A program made the translations under genes and the position numbers. The notes under the pieces were generated by a model. It was not told where the DNA came from. It ran no database searches and saw only the letters and a program-made list of their open reading frames with translations. From positions 1-33,148 of the forward strand of contig CAMDQF010000031.1 of NCBI GenBank assembly GCA_945905745.1: DNA of 33,148 nucleotides. Direction: 5' to 3'. The stretch comes from Litorilinea aerophila. GTDB taxonomy: Bacteria; Chloroflexota; Anaerolineae; Caldilineales; Caldilineaceae. Below are positions 1 to 33,012 of this stretch, piece by piece. Position 1 is the first letter of the stretch. Each line of letters begins with the position of its first letter.

Positions 1-54
1 TCGGCGGGTCTCGCCCAAACGATGACCAATGCCAAAACTTCTTCTTTTTCCCAC

Positions 55-83
55 TTGACACCCCTATTTTCCCGTGTTATAAT
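55..83 (+). promoter_or_regulatory. Sigma-70-type promoter giving a leaderless mRNA
   Basis: A consensus -35 TTGACA (55-60) is followed after exactly 17 bp by a consensus -10 TATAAT (78-83). Transcription would be expected to start about 7 bp later, at or one base before the ATG at 91. The DtxR-family gene is therefore likely read from a leaderless transcript, and no Shine-Dalgarno sequence precedes this ATG. Confidence 0.85.
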
Positions 84-100
84 TTTAGTCATGACTAAAA
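83..100. promoter_or_regulatory. Perfect 18-bp palindrome over the start codon, candidate DtxR-family operator
   Basis: TTTTAGTCATGACTAAAA is a perfect palindrome that begins at the last base of the -10 box and spans the predicted transcription start and the ATG at 91. DtxR-family repressors bind palindromes of about this length, so autorepression by the encoded regulator is the simplest reading. The TTAG-N6-CTAA core recurs at 812-825 in front of the binding-protein gene. Binding itself is inferred. Confidence 0.7.
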
Positions 101-792
101 ATTATGTACACGCAACCGAAAACCCCCTGACCTCGTCCCACGAGGACTACCTGAAGGCCATCTACTTGCTGGAAGCCAACGGCGAGTCGGTCAGCAACTC
201 TGCCTTGGCCCAACACATGGGCTTCGCTCCGGCCTCAGCCACCAATATGGTGAAGAAGCTGGCCGAACTGCACCTGGTCACCCATGAACCCTACCGGGGC
301 GTAGAGTTGACCGAGATGGGCCGCCAAGTAGCCCTGGAAGTCCTGCGCCATCATCGGCTGATCGAACTCTTCCTGCACCAGACCCTGGATATGTCCTGGG
401 ACCGCATCCACGACGAGGCCGACCGGCTGGAACACGTCATCAGCGAGGCGATGGAGGACGCGATGGCTGCGGTGCTGGGCAACCCGACGGTCGATCCCCA
501 CGGCGACCCCATCCCCAGCAAAGATGGTCATGTGGACAAGACGCCCGGTTACCCGCTTGCTGGCGCGGCCATCGGCGAACCGCTGCGCCTGGTTCGGGTG
601 CTGACCCAAGACCCGGACCGGCTCTGTTATCTGGGCAGCCTGGACCTCTATCCGGACGCGCAAATCGTTCTGCGCGAGCGCGCTCCCTTCCATGGACCCC
701 TGCTGGTCGAGGTCAACGGCAAGCCCCACGCCCTGGCCTATGAAATGGCCGAGTCTTTACAAGTCGTCGTTGAAGAGTTGACAGGTGTGTAA
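91..792 (+). CDS. DtxR/MntR-family metal-dependent transcriptional regulator
   Basis: This 233-residue protein has the DtxR-family layout. An N-terminal winged helix (about residues 12-75, with SSHEDYLKAIYLL and LTEMGRQVALEVLRHHRL) is followed by a helical dimerisation and metal-binding domain (DEADRLEHVISEAMED) and a C-terminal FeoA/SH3-like domain (about 155-230). Such proteins bind Mn, Fe or Zn and then repress uptake genes. The frame is open further upstream to an ATG at 22, but ATG 91 is chosen because a consensus promoter ends 7 bp before it and family homology starts just after it. It precedes a TroA-type ABC importer, its probable target. The metal cannot be fixed from sequence; Mn or Zn is most likely given the transporter's ligand set. 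Confidence 0.9.
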   Translation: MTKNYVHATENPLTSSHEDYLKAIYLLEANGESVSNSALAQHMGFAPASATNMVKKLAELHLVTHEPYRGVELTEMGRQVALEVLRHHRLIELFLHQTLDMSWDRIHDEADRLEHVISEAMEDAMAAVLGNPTVDPHGDPIPSKDGHVDKTPGYPLAGAAIGEPLRLVRVLTQDPDRLCYLGSLDLYPDAQIVLRERAPFHGPLLVEVNGKPHALAYEMAESLQVVVEELTGV

Positions 793-920: not shown

Positions 921-1919
921 ATGAAAGCGAGAACCCGTATGTCCCACTCACCGTTCCCCATTTCTATCCCCCGGCAGCGGAGAGGGTCAGCGATCCTCCT
1001 CCTGCTCCTGTCCGTTCTTCTGCTTCTGGCGGCCTGCACGCAGCCCGGGGAGGTGGCCGTCGCCAGCAGCGGCGACGCCCCAATCCGCGTGGTGACGACT
1101 ATCGGAATGATCACCGACGTGGCCCGCAACGTGGGCGGCGAGCACGTGGAAGTCACCGGTCTGATGGGTGCGGGGGTAGATCCCCATCTTTACAAAGCCA
1201 CCGAAAGCGATGTGAACAGACTGCTCAATGCCCAGATCATCTTCTATAACGGTCTCTTTCTGGAGTCGCGCATGGAAGACGTCTTTGCGCAGATCGCCGA
1301 ATCCAAACCGGCGATTGCTGTGGGCGAGGCGGTGCCCGTTGCCGAGCGGCTGGCCAGCCCCCAATACGCAGAACACTTCGACCCCCACATTTGGATGGAT
1401 GTAAAAAACTGGCAGATGGTGGCAGAAAAGATTCGGGACGAACTGATCGCCTTTGATCCCGCCCACGAGGCGGATTACCGCTCCAACACCGCCGCCTACC
1501 TGGCCCAATTGCAGGAATTGGAGGCGTGGGTGCAGGAGCAGGTGAAAACCGTGCCGGAGCAGCAACGGCTGCTCGTCACCGCACACGACGCCTTCCACTA
1601 TTTTGCCAAAGGCTATGACTTCTCCGTCTACGCGCCCCAGGGCATCAGCACCGAGTCGGAAGCCGGCGTGGAGGACATCCGCCGCACCATTGATATTGTG
1701 GTGGAACAGAATATCCCCGCCATTTTCGTCGAGAGCAGTGTGCCGCCGGATGTGGTGGAGGCTATCGTGGAGGGGGCCAGGGCCAGGGGCCACGAAATCC
1801 GCATCGGCGGCTCTCTCTTTTCCGACGCAATGGGCGAGGATGGGACACCCGAAGGCACCTACATCGGAATGATCCGCCACAATGTGGGAACGATTACCAG
1901 CGCGCTGCGGGGTGAGTGA
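921..1919 (+). CDS. troA: TroA-like metal-binding lipoprotein of an ABC importer (cluster A-I / ZnuA family)
   Basis: This 332-residue solute-binding lipoprotein of an ABC-3 (Zn/Mn) importer begins with a hydrophobic signal and a lipobox, LLAAC, with Cys39 as the lipidation site. Four probable ligands are His89 (DPHLY), His156 (DPHIWMD), His222 (TAHDAFHYF) and Asp302 (SLFSDAMG). Spacings of 67, 66 and 80 residues match the His-His-His-Asp set of Treponema TroA, which binds Zn and Mn. The family's acidic His-rich loop is absent; only a short insert lies between the first two His. ATG 939 is an alternative start with a shorter cationic N-terminus. The ATPase gene follows after 3 bp. The gene name rests on ligand geometry, not proven specificity. 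Confidence 0.9.
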   Translation: MKARTRMSHSPFPISIPRQRRGSAILLLLLSVLLLLAACTQPGEVAVASSGDAPIRVVTTIGMITDVARNVGGEHVEVTGLMGAGVDPHLYKATESDVNRLLNAQIIFYNGLFLESRMEDVFAQIAESKPAIAVGEAVPVAERLASPQYAEHFDPHIWMDVKNWQMVAEKIRDELIAFDPAHEADYRSNTAAYLAQLQELEAWVQEQVKTVPEQQRLLVTAHDAFHYFAKGYDFSVYAPQGISTESEAGVEDIRRTIDIVVEQNIPAIFVESSVPPDVVEAIVEGARARGHEIRIGGSLFSDAMGEDGTPEGTYIGMIRHNVGTITSALRGE

Positions 1920-1922
1920 GCG

Positions 1923-2717
1923 ATGAAAAAGCAAACCAACGGCGCCCCGCCCATCCAAATCGAAGACTTGACCGTCGCCTACCGGGAGGAGCCTGTCCTT
2001 TGGGATGTGGACCTGGACGTACACGAAGGCACGCTGATGGCGATCGTCGGACCGAACGGAGCGGGCAAGAGTACCCTCATCAAAACAGTGCTGGGTCTGA
2101 TCCAGCCCGCGGCCGGGCAAGTGCGTATCTATGGCCGCCCCTACGCCGAACAACGCGCGCTGGTAGCTTATGTCCCCCAGCGGGGCAGCGTGGATTGGGA
2201 TTTCCCCACCAACGCGCTGGATGTAGTGACAATGGGACGCTACGGCCATCTGGGCTGGCTGAAGCGCCCCGGCGCAACCGAGCGGCGGCTGGCCCTGGAG
2301 GCGCTGACAAAAGTCGGGATGCAAGAGTACGCGAAACGGCAGATCAGCCAGCTTTCCGGCGGGCAGCAGCAACGGGTCTTCCTGGCCCGTGCCCTGGTGC
2401 AGGACGCCCAGACTTATCTGATGGATGAGCCTTTTCAGGGCGTGGATGCCACCACCGAAAAGGCGATTATCACCGTTTTGCGGGAGCTGCGGGCAGCAGG
2501 GCGTACGGTCGTCGTCGTCCATCACAACCTGGAAACCGTGCCCGAATACTTCGATCATGTGCTGCTGCTGAATGTGCGGGCTATCGCCGCCGGGCCAGTG
2601 GCTGACATTTTCACCCCGGCCAATCTGCGCCGGGCCTACGGCGGTCATATGGAACTGCTTCTGCCCAAGACCGAAGAAGCGAACCCAGCGCCGGTTCAGG
2701 AGACGGAAAATGGATAG
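1923..2717 (+). CDS. troB: Metal ABC transporter ATP-binding protein
   Basis: This 264-residue ATPase of the ABC-3 type energises uptake of the metal delivered by the upstream lipoprotein. Visible motifs in order are Walker A GPNGAGKST (about residues 43-51), the Q-loop in VPQRGSVDWDFP, the signature LSGGQQQR, Walker B TYLMDEPF and the switch His in VVVVHH. The start at 1923 lies 3 bp after the previous stop. Its 3' end overlaps the first permease gene by 8 bp, which indicates translational coupling. Name by analogy with troB/mntB/znuC. Confidence 0.92.
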   Translation: MKKQTNGAPPIQIEDLTVAYREEPVLWDVDLDVHEGTLMAIVGPNGAGKSTLIKTVLGLIQPAAGQVRIYGRPYAEQRALVAYVPQRGSVDWDFPTNALDVVTMGRYGHLGWLKRPGATERRLALEALTKVGMQEYAKRQISQLSGGQQQRVFLARALVQDAQTYLMDEPFQGVDATTEKAIITVLRELRAAGRTVVVVHHNLETVPEYFDHVLLLNVRAIAAGPVADIFTPANLRRAYGGHMELLLPKTEEANPAPVQETENG

Positions 2718-3915
2718 CCTCACCGATCTTCTTCTCCTGATCTTCACCGATTACACCCTGCGCACCGTCACCCTGGGCGCAATGATTCTTGGGCTGGTGA
2801 GCGGGCTGCTGGGCAGCTTTGCCGTCCTGCGCAAGCAAAGTCTGCTGGGGGACGCGATGAGCCACGCGGCCCTGCCCGGCGTCGTTATGGCCTTCATCCT
2901 CACCGGCTCCAAAGCGCCGCTGGTGTTGATGCTGGGCGCGCTGGTTGCGGGCTGGCTGGGCGCGCTGCTGGTACAACTGGTCATCGATCAGACCCGTATC
3001 CCCCAGGACAGCGCACTGGGCATCGTCCTGGCCGTCTTCTTTGGCCTCGGGCTGGTGCTGCTTACGTGGGTGCAGCGCCAGGGCAGCGCCAACCAGAGCG
3101 GTCTGGATACCTTTCTCTTTGGCCGGGCCGCCGCGCTGGTGATGAGCGATGTCTGGGCGATGGCGGGGGTGGGCGGCGCGGGTCTGCTGCTGGTGGGCCT
3201 CTTTTGGAAGGAATTCAAACTGCTCAGCTTTGACCCGAATTTCGCCGCCACTCTCGGCTTCCCGGTGGCATTGCTCAATGTGCTGCTGACAACGCTGATT
3301 GTCGTGGCTGTCGTCGTCGGCTTACAGACCGTCGGCGTTGTGTTGATGAGCGCAATGGTTGTGGCCCCCGCGGCCGCGGCCCGCCAGTGGACCGACCGGC
3401 TGGACCGGATGGTACTGCTGGCGGCCCTCTTCGGCGCATTGGCCGGGATGAGCGGCGCTCTCATCAGCAGTCTCGGCCAGGGGCTGCCCACAGGGCCGAT
3501 GGTGGTTCTCTGCGTCAGTCTGCTGGTCGCTTTTTCTCTGCTCTTTGCGCCCAACCGCGGGCTGGTGGGCGCGTGGCTGCGCCAGCGCCGCAACCGCCGC
3601 CAGCTACGCCGCAGCGCCGTGCTGGAAGCGCTCTACCGGCTGGCCCTCTCCCACGGCGATCCCGGCTACGCCCATCCGCTGGGCGCGTTGCGGACGGTCA
3701 TTCCCGGCGTGGATGTGCGCCACACCCTGGCCGCTCTGGAAGACGAAGGGCTGGCCCACAATGCAGGGGGCGATCGGTGGGCATTGACTGCCGCCGGTGT
3801 CGAGCAGGCCCGCCGGGAATTGGGCCGTTTTCAGCGCCACGGCCTGGATGATCTGCCTGCTCTCCCGTTTCCCATCGCTGCCAGTGCTGCCGCGCCGTCG
3901 GAGGGGATGAAATGA
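2710..3915 (+). CDS. troC: ABC-3 metal permease with a C-terminal winged-helix-like tail
   Basis: Residues 1-285 form an ABC-3 membrane domain with about eight hydrophobic segments (GAMILGLVSGLLGSFAVLRKQ, GDAMSHAALPGVV and the conserved cytoplasmic coupling region). About 115 further residues follow: a basic linker (RQRRNRRQLRRSA), a helical region, and an ending LTAAGVEQARRELGRF that resembles the wing and last helix of DtxR-type domains. Ordinary permeases of this family stop near 280-290 residues. ATG 2710 is chosen over the upstream extension to 2572 because it overlaps the ATPase stop and starts the family homology. It forms the transmembrane heterodimer with the next gene. A regulatory role of the tail is inference. 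Confidence 0.9.
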   Translation: MDSLTDLLLLIFTDYTLRTVTLGAMILGLVSGLLGSFAVLRKQSLLGDAMSHAALPGVVMAFILTGSKAPLVLMLGALVAGWLGALLVQLVIDQTRIPQDSALGIVLAVFFGLGLVLLTWVQRQGSANQSGLDTFLFGRAAALVMSDVWAMAGVGGAGLLLVGLFWKEFKLLSFDPNFAATLGFPVALLNVLLTTLIVVAVVVGLQTVGVVLMSAMVVAPAAAARQWTDRLDRMVLLAALFGALAGMSGALISSLGQGLPTGPMVVLCVSLLVAFSLLFAPNRGLVGAWLRQRRNRRQLRRSAVLEALYRLALSHGDPGYAHPLGALRTVIPGVDVRHTLAALEDEGLAHNAGGDRWALTAAGVEQARRELGRFQRHGLDDLPALPFPIAASAAAPSEGMK

Positions 3916-5015
3916 GTCCGCAACTAGAAATTCAACTGGTGGCGAGTATTGTGGCCGCCGCCTGCGCCTTGCCCGGCGTCTTTTTGATTTTGCGCCGGAT
4001 GGCGCTGATGAGCGACGCCATCAGCCACAGCATTCTGCTCGGCATTGCGGTCGGCTTTCTGTTGACCGGTCACACGGGCCACCCGCTGCTTATTGCCCTG
4101 GCCGCGGCCAGCGGTATCCTAACCGTCACACTGGTGGAAGCGCTGATCAACACCCGGCGGGTGAAGGAAGACGCGGCTATCGGGCTGGTCTTTCCCGTCC
4201 TTTTCAGCATCGGCGTCATCCTCATCAGCCGCTATGCGGGGGATGTGCATTTGGACGCGGACGCTGTGCTGCTGGGTGAACTGGCCTTCGCTCCCTTCAA
4301 CCGGATGACCGTCTTCGGCTTGCGTCTGCCCCAGGGCGTCTGGGTGATGGGGTCTATTCTGTTTGTCAATCTGCTCTTTGTCGCGCTATTCTATAAGGAG
4401 CTGAAGCTGGCAACCTTCGATGCCGCGTTGGCTGCGGCGCTGGGCTTTTCGCCCGCCCTGCTCCACTACGGGCTGATGTCCGTCGTCTCCATTACGGCAG
4501 TCGGCGCGTTCGATCACGTGGGGTCGATTCTGGTGGTGGCGCTGATGATTGCGCCTCCGGCTTCGGCCTATCTGCTCACCCACTCCCTGCCTCGGATGCT
4601 GGGGTTGAGCGTGCTTTTTGGTGTTGCTTCTGCCATTGGCGGCTACTGGCTGGCCCGCTTTTTGGACGCCAACATTGCCGGCGCGATGGCGTCGATGACC
4701 GGCGTCTTCTTTCTGCTCACGCTGCTCCTGGCCCCGGAGCAGGGGCTGCTGGCCCGAGCGCTTCAGCGCCAGCGCCGCCGCCGGCGTTTTGCGGTGGAGA
4801 TGCTGCTGGTCCATCTGAGCCGCCACGAAAACAAGCCGGAAGCGGGCACGGAAAATTCCCTGGCTCATCTGGTGGAAGAGCTGAAATGGCAGCCCGACTT
4901 CGCCCACTCCACCGTGCGCAGCGCCCAGGACGGAGCCTTCGTCGAGCGGCAGAACGGCCTGCTGCTGCTCACAGAAGAGGGGCGGCAGGTGGCAAGACAG
5001 GTGCTGGCGCGATAG
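3912..5015 (+). CDS. troD: Second ABC-3 metal permease with a C-terminal winged-helix-like tail
   Basis: This 367-residue partner permease overlaps the previous gene by 4 bp (ATGA). The ABC-3 membrane domain spans about residues 1-275 (FLILRRMALMSDAISHSILLGIAVG near the start). After a very basic linker (RQRRRRR), about residues 285-367 form a soluble region ending LLLTEEGRQVARQVLAR. The last part matches the local DtxR-family protein almost residue for residue (LTEMGRQVALEVL), so a winged-helix origin is credible. The upper half of the tail is weaker. The transported metal is probably Mn or Zn, from the TroA-type binding protein. Confidence 0.9.
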   Translation: MSPQLEIQLVASIVAAACALPGVFLILRRMALMSDAISHSILLGIAVGFLLTGHTGHPLLIALAAASGILTVTLVEALINTRRVKEDAAIGLVFPVLFSIGVILISRYAGDVHLDADAVLLGELAFAPFNRMTVFGLRLPQGVWVMGSILFVNLLFVALFYKELKLATFDAALAAALGFSPALLHYGLMSVVSITAVGAFDHVGSILVVALMIAPPASAYLLTHSLPRMLGLSVLFGVASAIGGYWLARFLDANIAGAMASMTGVFFLLTLLLAPEQGLLARALQRQRRRRRFAVEMLLVHLSRHENKPEAGTENSLAHLVEELKWQPDFAHSTVRSAQDGAFVERQNGLLLLTEEGRQVARQVLAR

Positions 5016-5053: not shown

Positions 5054-7336
5054 ATGCCTGCATCCCCACCCACCTTCTCTCTCCCCATCACCGGTATGGA
5101 CTGCGCCGACTGCGCGCGCACAATCCAGACGGGCGTTTCCCGTCTGAGCGGGGTGGAAAGTTGTTCGGTCAACTTCACCGCGGCCAAAATCAGTGTGACC
5201 GGCGGCGTGGCTGAAGAAGCGGTCATCGCCCGGGTGCGGGAGCTGGGCTACGATATCGCCCAGCCCGGCGCGCCCGGCGTGGCTGTCGCCCCGCCCCCCG
5301 CCAACTTTCTGCGCTTTCTTCTGCAAAGCCAGGAGACCCGGCTGGCCCTGCTGGCCGGGCTTTTCATTCTGCCCGGCCTGATCTTCAACGAATTTCTGCC
5401 GATACTGGGCGTGGAACACTGGGCCTTTGACATCACTTCTCTGCTGGCGATGCTCCTGGCGGGCTACCCCATTGCCCGCAGCGGCTGGCGCGCCCTGCGC
5501 ATCAACCGCCAGATCACCATCAACGGGCTGATGACAATTGCTGCGGTGGGCGCGGTAGTCATCGGTGCCTACAGCGAAGCCGGGCTGGTGATGGTTCTCT
5601 TTGCCCTGGGTGAGGCCCTGGAAGGCTACACCGTCGAGCGTTCCCGCCACTCCATCCGCAGCCTGCTGGAAGTCGCCCCGGCAGAGGCGCTTGTGCTATA
5701 CCCCTGTATGGACTGCCAGGGACATCAGGGCAAGCTGCTGGACGACGGCACACCCTACGACGCCACTGGCCCCTGTCCCTGGTGCGGCAGCCACGAAGCG
5801 AGTGTGCCCATCGCGTCCCTGGCAATCGGCGATATTGTGCTGGTCAAGCCCGGCGCGGCTATCCCTGTGGATGGCCGGGTGCTGACCGGTGCGTCTACGG
5901 TCAACCAATCCCCCATCACCGGCGAGAGTGCGCCTGTGGACAAGCAGCCCGGCGACGAGCTTTTCGCGGGCAGCATCAACGGCCAGGCAGCGTTGGAGGT
6001 GGAAGTCACCCGCCTGGCCGCCGACAATACAATCAACCGGATGATCCGGCTGGTGGAGGATGCCCAGGCCCAGCGCGCCCCAGCCCAGCGCTTTGTGGAC
6101 CGCTTCGCCGCAGTCTATACGCCGCTGGTGGTGGTGCTGGCCGGCCTGACCGCGGCCCTGCCCCCCCTCTTTTGGGATGCGCCCTTCTGGAACACCGCCG
6201 ACGGCGGCCAGGGCTGGCTCTATCGGGGGCTGGCCCTGCTCGTCGTGGCCTGCCCCTGCGCGCTGGTCATCAGCACACCGGTCACAATCATCAGCGCCAT
6301 CAGCAACGCCGCCCGCAACGGCGTTCTCATCAAAGGCGGCGCATTTCTGGAAGCAATGGCGGGCATCCGGGCCATCGCCTTTGACAAGACCGGAACACTC
6401 ACCGCAGGCCGTCCCGCGGTCGTGACCGTCCGTTCGGTCAATTGCACGTCCCCCGACGAGGAACCCTGCGCCCCCTGCGCCGATCTGCTGGCCCTGGCCG
6501 CGGCTGTGGAACGGCGCAGCGAACACCCGTTGGCGAGGGCCGTCGTCAGCGCATCGGAACGGTTCGCCAATCCCTACCCGGCTGCCGAAGGGGTCACCGC
6601 GCTGGTGGGTGCGGGGGTCTCCGGCGCGGTGGCTGGGCGGTCTGTGCTGGTGGGCAGCCACGCCTATTTTGAGGCGAACGTCCCCCACGCGTTGGAGCAG
6701 TGCGCGCAGATCGACGCGGCTTCCGGTCTGGGCCAGACGCCGCTGCTGGTCAGCGCCGGGGAGGAGTATCAGGGCTACATTACTGTGGCCGATGCGGTGC
6801 GGGAGAGCAGCCGCCGGGTGTTGGGTGAACTGCGGGAGGCGGGTATCGAGCATACGGTAATGCTCACCGGCGACAACCCAGCCACGGCCCAACACATCGC
6901 CGGACAGGTGGGGGTGACCGATGTGCGGGCTGGTCTGCTGCCGGAGCAGAAGGCCGCCGCGCTCAAGGAACTGATGGCCCGTTTTGGCCCGACCGCGATG
7001 GTGGGTGACGGCATCAACGACGCGCCGGCCCTGGCCACGGCCACCGTCGGCATTGCAATGGGCGCAGCCGGGGGCGGCACGGCCCAGGCGATGGAGACGG
7101 CGGACATCGCGCTGATGGGCGACGATCTGAGCCGTTTGCCCTTCCTCGTCGGTCTGAGCCGGGCCGCGATGGGGACGGTGCGGGTGAATGTGGCCCTAAG
7201 CATCGGCATCAAAGTCGTCTTTCTGCTGCTGGTGCTGGCCGGGTGGGGGACGATGTGGATGGCCGTCCTGGCCGATGTGGGCACGTCCCTGCTGGTGACG
7301 CTGAACGGGATGCGGCTGCTGGGTTGGCGGGGGTAG
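5054..7336 (+). CDS. Zn/Cd/Pb-type P1B-ATPase with a CxxC...CxxC insert
   Basis: This 760-residue heavy-metal efflux ATPase has an N-terminal HMA domain with GMDCADC (Cys17, Cys20), the TM6 motif CPC (Cys400, Cys402), phosphorylation site DKTGT (Asp444), SEHPLA, and GDGINDAPAL. Lys720 (GIKVVF) and Asp741 (LADVGTS) near the C-terminus match the residues that define Zn2+/Cd2+/Pb2+ (P1B-2) pumps such as ZntA. Unusually, a roughly 40-residue segment with Cys218-x2-Cys221 and Cys241-x2-Cys244 interrupts the actuator region just before VPIASLAIGDIVLVKPG and looks like a zinc ribbon. ATG 5054 is the likely start because the open frame upstream is not homologous. It follows the importer genes by 38 bp on the same strand. 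Confidence 0.93.
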   Translation: MPASPPTFSLPITGMDCADCARTIQTGVSRLSGVESCSVNFTAAKISVTGGVAEEAVIARVRELGYDIAQPGAPGVAVAPPPANFLRFLLQSQETRLALLAGLFILPGLIFNEFLPILGVEHWAFDITSLLAMLLAGYPIARSGWRALRINRQITINGLMTIAAVGAVVIGAYSEAGLVMVLFALGEALEGYTVERSRHSIRSLLEVAPAEALVLYPCMDCQGHQGKLLDDGTPYDATGPCPWCGSHEASVPIASLAIGDIVLVKPGAAIPVDGRVLTGASTVNQSPITGESAPVDKQPGDELFAGSINGQAALEVEVTRLAADNTINRMIRLVEDAQAQRAPAQRFVDRFAAVYTPLVVVLAGLTAALPPLFWDAPFWNTADGGQGWLYRGLALLVVACPCALVISTPVTIISAISNAARNGVLIKGGAFLEAMAGIRAIAFDKTGTLTAGRPAVVTVRSVNCTSPDEEPCAPCADLLALAAAVERRSEHPLARAVVSASERFANPYPAAEGVTALVGAGVSGAVAGRSVLVGSHAYFEANVPHALEQCAQIDAASGLGQTPLLVSAGEEYQGYITVADAVRESSRRVLGELREAGIEHTVMLTGDNPATAQHIAGQVGVTDVRAGLLPEQKAAALKELMARFGPTAMVGDGINDAPALATATVGIAMGAAGGGTAQAMETADIALMGDDLSRLPFLVGLSRAAMGTVRVNVALSIGIKVVFLLLVLAGWGTMWMAVLADVGTSLLVTLNGMRLLGWRG

Positions 7337-10016: not shown

Positions 10017-10160
10017 GTGACCCATTCCGTCCCATCCCATTCCCAACGGGTCAACGCCATCAGCACCGCCACGGGACCCGCCCCGTCAGCAGCCCAGGAA
10101 TGGGTCACGGCGGACACGCGATGGGCGACCCATTCCTGGACCGATCGCGCGTTGACAGTC
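10017..10160. repeat. Left flanking repeat with mutually exclusive hairpins
   Basis: GTGACCCATTCC (10017-10028) is complementary to GGAATGGGTCAC (10097-10108). The overlapping CCAGGAATGGGT (10094-10105) is also complementary to ACCCATTCCTGG (10128-10139). The middle arm can therefore pair left or right, but not both. GTCAACGC (10050-10057) and GCGTTGAC (10149-10156) can form an enclosing stem. The same arrangement is preserved in the copy beginning at 11112. Confidence 0.75.
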
Positions 10161-10504
10161 CGATTGGTCCGATGTGTCTATCCGGGCAGGTCATCAGACG
10201 GGACGGCATGGGTCGCCCCTACCGAATCACATACACGATTTCCATATGACCAACCGATTGGTCCGATGTGTCTATCCGGGCAGGTCATCAGACGGGACGG
10301 AATGGGTCGCCCCTACCGAATCACATACACGATTTCTACATGACCAACCGATTGGTCCGATGTATCTATCCGGGCAGGTCATCAGACGGGACGGCATGGG
10401 TCGCCCCTACCGAATCACATACACGATTTCCACATGACCAACCGATTGGTCCGATGTATCTATCCGGGCCGGCCATCAGACGGGACGGCATGGGTCGCCC
10501 CTAC
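10161..10504. repeat. 94-bp tandem repeat array (three full copies and a partial fourth)
   Basis: CGATTGGTCCGATGT recurs at 10161, 10255, 10349 and 10443, giving an exact period of 94 bp. The fourth copy ends at about 10504, against the stop codon of the transposase gene. Three unit junctions contain the perfect hairpin GACCAA-CCGA-TTGGTC (10248-10263, 10342-10357, 10436-10451). The units differ by only a few bases, so the expansion is recent. The frame is open through the units, but the repeated peptide has no protein-like features. Confidence 0.9.
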
Positions 10505-31349: not shown

Positions 31350-31933
31350 ATGGTGAATTGCGCAGATTCGCACTGTCTGAGACTGTAGGAAAGGAGAAGC
31401 GGACATTGTTAATATCACGTGTGGCCCAAGAGTGGCTGGATCAAGGCCGGGAAGAAGGACTAGAACGAGGATTGCAGCAAGGCAAGCGTCAACTCTTGCT
31501 CGATCTGATCACCTATCGCTTTGGCTCGCTAGACCCTGCCCTGCGCGCCGCGCTGGACGCCTGCAACCGGGAGCAGCTTTCTGCGGTCAGCCACATTGTG
31601 CTGGATGCCAGCAGCGCGACAGTGGCGCAGATTCGCACTGTCTTGGAGACTGTAGGAAAGGAGAAAAGGACAATGTTGATTTCACCAGCGGCCCAGGAGT
31701 GGCTGGAGCAAGGCCGGGAAGAAGGGGTGGAACGAGGACTGGAACAGGGCAAGCGTCAACTTCTGGTCGATCTGATCACCTATCGCTTTGGCGCGCCGGA
31801 CACGGCCCTGCGCGCCGCGCTGGACGCGTGCAACCGGGAGCAGCTTTCTGCGGTCAGTCATATTGTGCTGGATGCCAGCAGCGCCGCGGAAATGCTGCGC
31901 AACATTCGGCGGATGGCGCTGGCAGATGTGTGA
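31346..31933 (+). pseudogene. Tandemly duplicated C-terminal fragments of an Rpn/DUF4351-type protein
   Basis: The frame of 195 residues consists of two similar halves. Each runs ETVGKEKRT-x-LIS, AQEWL-x-QGREEG, ERGL-x-QGKRQLL, DLITYRFG, ALRAALDACNREQLSAVSHIVLDASSA. This is the tail normally following the PD-(D/E)XK nuclease domain of recombination-promoting (Rpn/YhgA-like) transposase-related proteins. The nuclease domain is missing. The GTG start overlaps the ftsK stop by 4 bp and has no independent Shine-Dalgarno. It is most likely a decayed mobile gene, though an expressed small protein is possible. Confidence 0.75.
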
Positions 31934-32532: not shown

Positions 32533-33012
32533 TCACCGAACAATCCGCAGATTCTTCAAATGGGCCAGGGGCGTCACGTCCCCCACCTGCGTATTCATCA
32601 GGTCCAGGGTTTGCAGGCTGGTCAACCCCGCCAGGGGCGTCACATCCCCCACCTGCGTATTCATCAGGTCCAGGTATTGCAGGCTCGTCAACCCCGTCAG
32701 GGGCGTCATATCCCCCACCTGCGTAGAACTCAGGTGCAGGTATTGCAGGCTCGTCAACCCCGCCAGGGGCGTCACATCCCCCACCTGCGTAGAACGCAGG
32801 TTCAGATATTGCAGGCTGGTCAACCCGGCCAAGGGCGTCACATCCCCCACCTGTGTAGTACTCAGATCCAGTTCTTGCAGGCTCGTCAACCCCGCCAAAG
32901 GCGTCACATCCCCCACCTGCGTATCCCTCAGGTCCAGGGATTGCAGCTTCGTCAACCCCGCCAGGGGCGTCACATCCCCCACCTGCGTAGAACTCAAGTA
33001 CGTTAGTGTCAC
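32533..33012 (-). pseudogene. Leucine-rich-repeat protein, internalin-type, N-terminally truncated
   Basis: The 159-residue frame contains seven 22-residue units of the form TQVGDVTPLAGLTSLQYLDLMN, a bacterial LRR with strictly periodic Leu and Asp-Val-Thr-Pro turns, ending LKNLRIVR and a stop. Each unit is 66 bp and the units are nearly identical, so it expanded recently. The only start is a GTG at 33012 without a Shine-Dalgarno, and a stop codon lies in frame shortly upstream. No signal peptide, other N-terminal domain or anchor is present. It looks like the 3' end of a larger gene, such as an LRR-Roc/COR or LRR-TIR protein, though that identity is open. Confidence 0.7.

Follow-up and report, generated by a model that had tools for sequence, protein, structure and literature searches.

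A putative zinc knuckle inserted into the actuator domain of P1B-type metal ATPases from Chloroflexota

Dephosphorylation of every P-type ATPase is driven by its actuator domain, and the locus studied here raises the question of whether a heavy-metal pump can carry a metal site of its own within that domain and, if so, what such a site would do. The window (the whole stretch of DNA analysed, 33,148 nucleotides of contig CAMDQF010000031.1 from Litorilinea aerophila) encodes a P1B-2-type ATPase in which a zinc-ribbon-like insert had been proposed from the sequence alone. The features concerned are listed in Table 1. The window also holds tandem repeats at 10160-10504 (94-bp unit, 3.7 copies, 96% matches), 31360-31884 (267 bp, 2 copies) and 32564-32996 (66 bp, 6.6 copies).

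Table 1. Features of the pump gene and its upstream neighbours in the window.
Feature	Position	Strand	Details
DtxR/MntR-type regulator with FeoA domain	22..792	+	
ABC metal-importer genes: ZnuA-like binding protein, ATPase, two ABC-3 permeases	921..5015	+	
P1B-2-type heavy-metal ATPase gene	5054..7336	+	760 aa plus stop, start ATG 5054
N-terminal HMA domain, about residues 7-70, GMDCADC	5072..5263	+	domain match; strands/helices in predicted model
First A-domain strand, residues 211-217, ahead of insert	5684..5704	+	DSSP of model
Actuator-domain insert, about residues 217-248: Cys218, Cys221, His224, Cys241, Cys244, Glu248	5702..5797	+	
Second A-domain strand, residues 246-252, past insert	5789..5809	+	DSSP of model
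N-domain Cys cluster C464, C472, C475	6443..6478	+	alignment
C550, fourth conserved N-domain Cys	6701..6703	+	alignment

The translation is that of a complete P1B-type ATPase with HMA, actuator (A), P and N domains. The DKTGT, TGES, HP and GDGxND motifs are all present and were kept in the alignment of relatives. Residues E175, C400/C402, K720 and D741 align with Glu202, Cys392/Cys394, Lys693 and Asp714 of SsZntA; the P1B-2 selectivity marks (CPC in M4, Lys in M6, Asp in M8 and the counterpart of SsZntA Glu202) were thus all found. The protein scored above the cut-offs of NCBIfam models TIGR01525 and TIGR01512 (Cd family) and below that of TIGR01511 (Cu), and the cut-offs of the narrow NCBIfam ZntA equivalog models were not reached. 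The AlphaFold2 model of the full pump (pLDDT 85.6) has eight membrane helices and matches P1B structures. Its HMA, A, P and N domains are as in the P1B-2 Zn2+-ATPase SsZntA (PDB 4umv/4umw), and its overall fold is as in the CadA-type cadmium-translocating ATPase (PDB 7qbz; VIA-align Z 28.9, 592 residues), the rmsd of 13.0 against the latter arising because domain placement differs. The pump most probably extrudes Zn2+/Cd2+/Pb2+-type ions, although even the cargo metal is placed in doubt by relatives that lie in iron (DtxR/FeoB) or manganese-type operons.

The insert comprises about 30 residues and splits the beta hairpin that strands 1 and 2 form in the actuator domain, between ...EALVLYP and VPIASLAIGDIVLVKPG. 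In the translation from the ATG, the four cysteines fall where the original prediction had placed them, ahead of the latter segment, with codons at 5705-5707 (Cys218), 5714-5716 (Cys221), 5774-5776 (Cys241) and 5783-5785 (Cys244). The prediction had also held that ZntA/CadA pumps lack the insert and that an N-terminal HMA domain is present besides it. Both points were borne out: the HMA domain carries its GMDCADC motif, and phmmer alignments of the pump to SsZntA (4umv) and CadA (7qbz) stop at query 212/214 and restart at 249. The A-domain hairpin of SsZntA is without the insert, unlike that of the window pump, and the insert is likewise absent from CadA 7qbz. Outgroup pumps have a short turn at this site, for example ALVRRGETEITLPV in Methanosarcina (L070).

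Among 48 distinct inserts, C-x-D-C-x2-[H/C]-x-G was followed, after a linker, by C-P-[F/W/I/M]-C, usually with G next to it, and by E at +4 in 43 of the 48; in its strict form the motif reads C-x-D-C-x2-[H/C]-x-G-(n)-G-P-C-P-[F/W]-C-G, with E at +4. The linker between the knuckles varied from 13 to 45 residues, with long expansions in L061, L064 and L065, and the knuckles themselves were constant. Position 224 is His in 45 inserts and Cys in the remaining three; such an exchange is expected of a metal ligand and makes His224 a probable additional one. At one locus (L111) Arg replaces the first Cys, and C221, H224, C241 and C244 are retained; the predicted site may on this evidence be Cys4, Cys3His or one with a spare ligand.

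In the full AlphaFold2 model, the knuckles lie between strands 211-217 and 246-252, C218-x2-C221 coming after the first strand and C241-x2-C244 ahead of the second. Given the hairpin topology, the two strands would pair and the knuckles would lie side by side at the paired-strand ends, an arrangement in which the four cysteines could share a metal. The Cys/His knuckle geometry proposed here is drawn from the topology of this metal-free model. When a 53-residue hairpin with the insert was folded alone by using AlphaFold2, the mean pLDDT was 90.7, with 92-96 at the knuckles and 93-96 in the core. As in CPxCG zinc ribbons and rubredoxin knuckles, two Cys knuckles would be placed at paired-strand ends, with the CPxCG knuckle second; the insert differs from these in an extra conserved His/Cys three residues past the second Cys. 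CPxCG knuckles usually bind zinc tightly, in a structural role. Foldseek and VIA-align searches with the insert alone, a query of only 53 residues, matched no solved structure, and the zinc-ribbon families of Pfam all stayed below their cut-offs. In profile searches against PDB and Pfam, zinc ribbons and the rubredoxin domain of PknG came up at chance level only; one insert member matched the PknG rubredoxin family weakly (E 0.0023 in 25 scans). Sequence, conservation and the confident structure prediction together support a metal-binding site in the actuator domain of this Zn-type pump, as originally proposed; the motif proved stricter than had been described. The open-access literature yielded no description of an actuator-domain zinc ribbon or metal site in such pumps, nor of the insert as a characterised feature of the subfamily. 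The conservation of His224, a co-occurring N-domain Cys cluster, the occurrence in dozens of Chloroflexota genomes and the patchiness within the clade go beyond the original prediction.

The insert profile matched 8 of 400 genomes in a phylum-wide sample, all of one class, and 59 of 396 sampled genomes from the same class as the window genome, where several families were represented. When 84,980 species genomes were scanned with peptide patterns from the pump, inserts turned up only in Chloroflexota, in records with no phylum named and in two KSB1 records; the scan favours close relatives of the window pump, so that absence from other phyla is not proven. The insert had a dN/dS ratio of 0.23, the A-domain stretch after it one of 0.24 and the remaining protein one of 0.18. 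Chance or artefact as the source of the insert was ruled out by its presence in 59 of the 396 class genomes and by its dN/dS of 0.23. A search for a second copy in the window's genome returned nothing better than E 0.06. As for spread by plasmids, the best plasmid matches, judged by identity, were general P1B pumps with at most about 42%.

The tree of the pumps was computed with the trait columns left out, and every row with the insert fell into one 51-row set (SH-aLRT 95), together with seven rows that lack the full insert. Parsimony required six changes, and the insert-bearing rows as a single clade without losses were rejected by the AU test (p-AU 9e-7). The simplest reading is one gain followed by about five losses or decays, the direction of change not being fixed; the patchiness within the clade is thus best read as repeated loss. 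One origin with several losses fits an insert that is an accessory feature of the pump. The HMA domain was kept with its cysteines in every row, while the insert was apparently lost several times. Both KSB1 rows were nested inside the Chloroflexota set, which suggests transfer.

The N-domain carries further conserved cysteines. Of the 31 rows with the insert, 28 to 31 had C464, C472, C475 and C550, against 2 or 3 of the 19 other rows, three of which (L048, L055 and L057) lie within the insert clade; most of the clade thus shares the cluster. The segment C464-C475 occupies a loop that is shorter and without Cys in SsZntA, and the cluster may be a further candidate metal site. In a wider set the insert occurred without the cluster (L015, L126) and the cluster without the insert (L022, L023, L038), which rules out that the insert strictly depends on the cluster.

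The pump gene begins 38 bp past an ABC metal-importer operon that has the DtxR/MntR-type regulator at its head. A related importer is convergent with the pump gene at L048 and L109-L112; L109 also encodes a second P1B-ATPase, without the insert (356-2602, - strand), in a cluster with the importer and the insert-bearing pump. At L040-L043, L052, L061 and L065, and at the truncated loci L096 and L102, the genes ahead of the pump are those of a DtxR-FeoA regulator and of a FeoB split into a G-domain protein and a separate membrane protein, and a VIT1 protein is additionally encoded at L061 and L065. The separate FeoB G-domain proteins of L040 (3272-4264), L061 (3595-4452) and relatives start with CxxCxxHN (for example CETCPVHNAA), which resembles the first knuckle of the pump insert, CxDCxxH. 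Most insert-bearing loci have no adjoining Feo genes, and no FeoB was seen in the window's own assembly. An ArsR-like gene precedes the pump at L058 and a MerR-like gene at L115, as judged by eye from the sequence. Our guess, which fits all of these contexts, is that the pump clears unwanted Zn or Cd brought in by iron/manganese importers.

The position of the insert in the pump cycle was considered by using an alignment to a SERCA fragment, in which the insert takes the place of the turn that lies between Arg131 and Arg139. In SERCA, the contact partners of Arg134 and Arg139 are residues 426, 427 and 435 of the N-domain (PMC7733806), and the approach of Arg139 to Asp426 correlates with activity (PMC7583845). 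By analogy, the insert would sit on a hairpin tip that touches the N-domain; because the distance between A and N domains is large in AfCopA in E1 (PMC9433437), we infer this contact for P1B pumps from SERCA only. The metal-binding domains of ATP7B and LpCopA have been placed beside the A-domain and proposed as sensors of autoinhibition (PMC11970713), so the knuckle may alternatively contact the HMA domain. Like the metal-binding domains of the LpCopA type (PMC11970713), the insert would be an extra and perhaps regulatory cytosolic module; those domains are terminal and on linkers, whereas the insert lies inside the actuator domain.

The best explanation, to which we give an even chance, is that the insert is a zinc knuckle with a structural role, which stiffens a contact between domains and tunes actuator movement. 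A compact knuckle, with ligands among Cys218, Cys221, His224, Cys241 and Cys244, would cap the lengthened beta1-beta2 hairpin and hold one metal, most likely Zn2+, constitutively. Its rigid surface would touch a neighbouring domain, either the N-domain or a docked HMA domain, and this contact would set the ease of actuator rotation, so that the knuckle would tune the pump off the cargo path. The conserved C-x-D-C...G-P-C-P-x-C with its H/C exchange, the constant knuckles and the dN/dS of 0.23 against 0.24 were counted in favour, as were the pLDDT of the insert folded alone, the flanking strands, the alignment to the SERCA turn with its N-domain contacts and the seat of P1B metal-binding domains beside the A-domain; the patchy loss fits an accessory role. 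The metal-free model behind the ligand geometry, the lack of a solved match for the 53-residue insert, the lack of a Pfam zinc-ribbon match at cut-off, and an A-N contact drawn from SERCA despite the large A-N distance in E1 AfCopA were counted against. A decoration of a tolerant loop, neutral or almost so, would account for the repeated loss or decay and for the long linkers of L061, L064 and L065, but it is the least probable reading, as the knuckle residues are invariant across distant rows and the dN/dS is 0.23.

Where a knuckle has a CPxCG turn and four or five ligands, its Zn is usually held too firmly for sensing; an HMA domain with its cysteines is already present in every row, and these cysteines stay while the insert was apparently lost several times. 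These points weigh against a regulatory sensor, the role raised in the original prediction, which would bind cytoplasmic Zn reversibly and release or impose a brake on actuator movement. The seat of the knuckle on the actuator domain, the autoinhibition sensing proposed for terminal metal-binding domains of P1B pumps (PMC11970713) and the fit of an optional regulator to the patchy loss speak for such a sensor, which we regard as rather unlikely. A rubredoxin-like iron site or redox-sensitive knuckle that couples the pump to iron status draws on the relatives that come immediately after DtxR-FeoA and split FeoB genes and on the single weak PknG match, but is improbable in view of the majority of insert-bearing loci, which have no adjoining Feo genes, the ArsR-like and MerR-like neighbours that fit Zn/Cd export and the window assembly in which no FeoB was seen. 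The additional thiol and imidazole ligands on a cytosolic domain might also serve as a metal relay or chaperone dock that passes cargo from the cytosol or the HMA domain to the membrane entry site. Such a role is very doubtful: by the SERCA analogy, the tip of the hairpin lies distally in the A-domain and points towards the N-domain, not the membrane entry, and a compact ribbon keeps its metal inside.

With a structural knuckle as the preferred reading, it is conceivable, though we think it somewhat improbable, that these pumps form a P1B-ATPase lineage with an actuator metal site and an N-domain Cys cluster, in which metal occupancy of the headpiece, and not only that of the terminal HMA domain, controls the cycle. 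The zinc/cadmium-annotated exporters found in iron- or manganese-type operons of some genomes are a warning that the physiological role may differ from the annotation. If true, a separable natural metal site in the actuator domain would offer a handle on how actuator rotation can be tuned, and nature offers close relatives with and without the insert.
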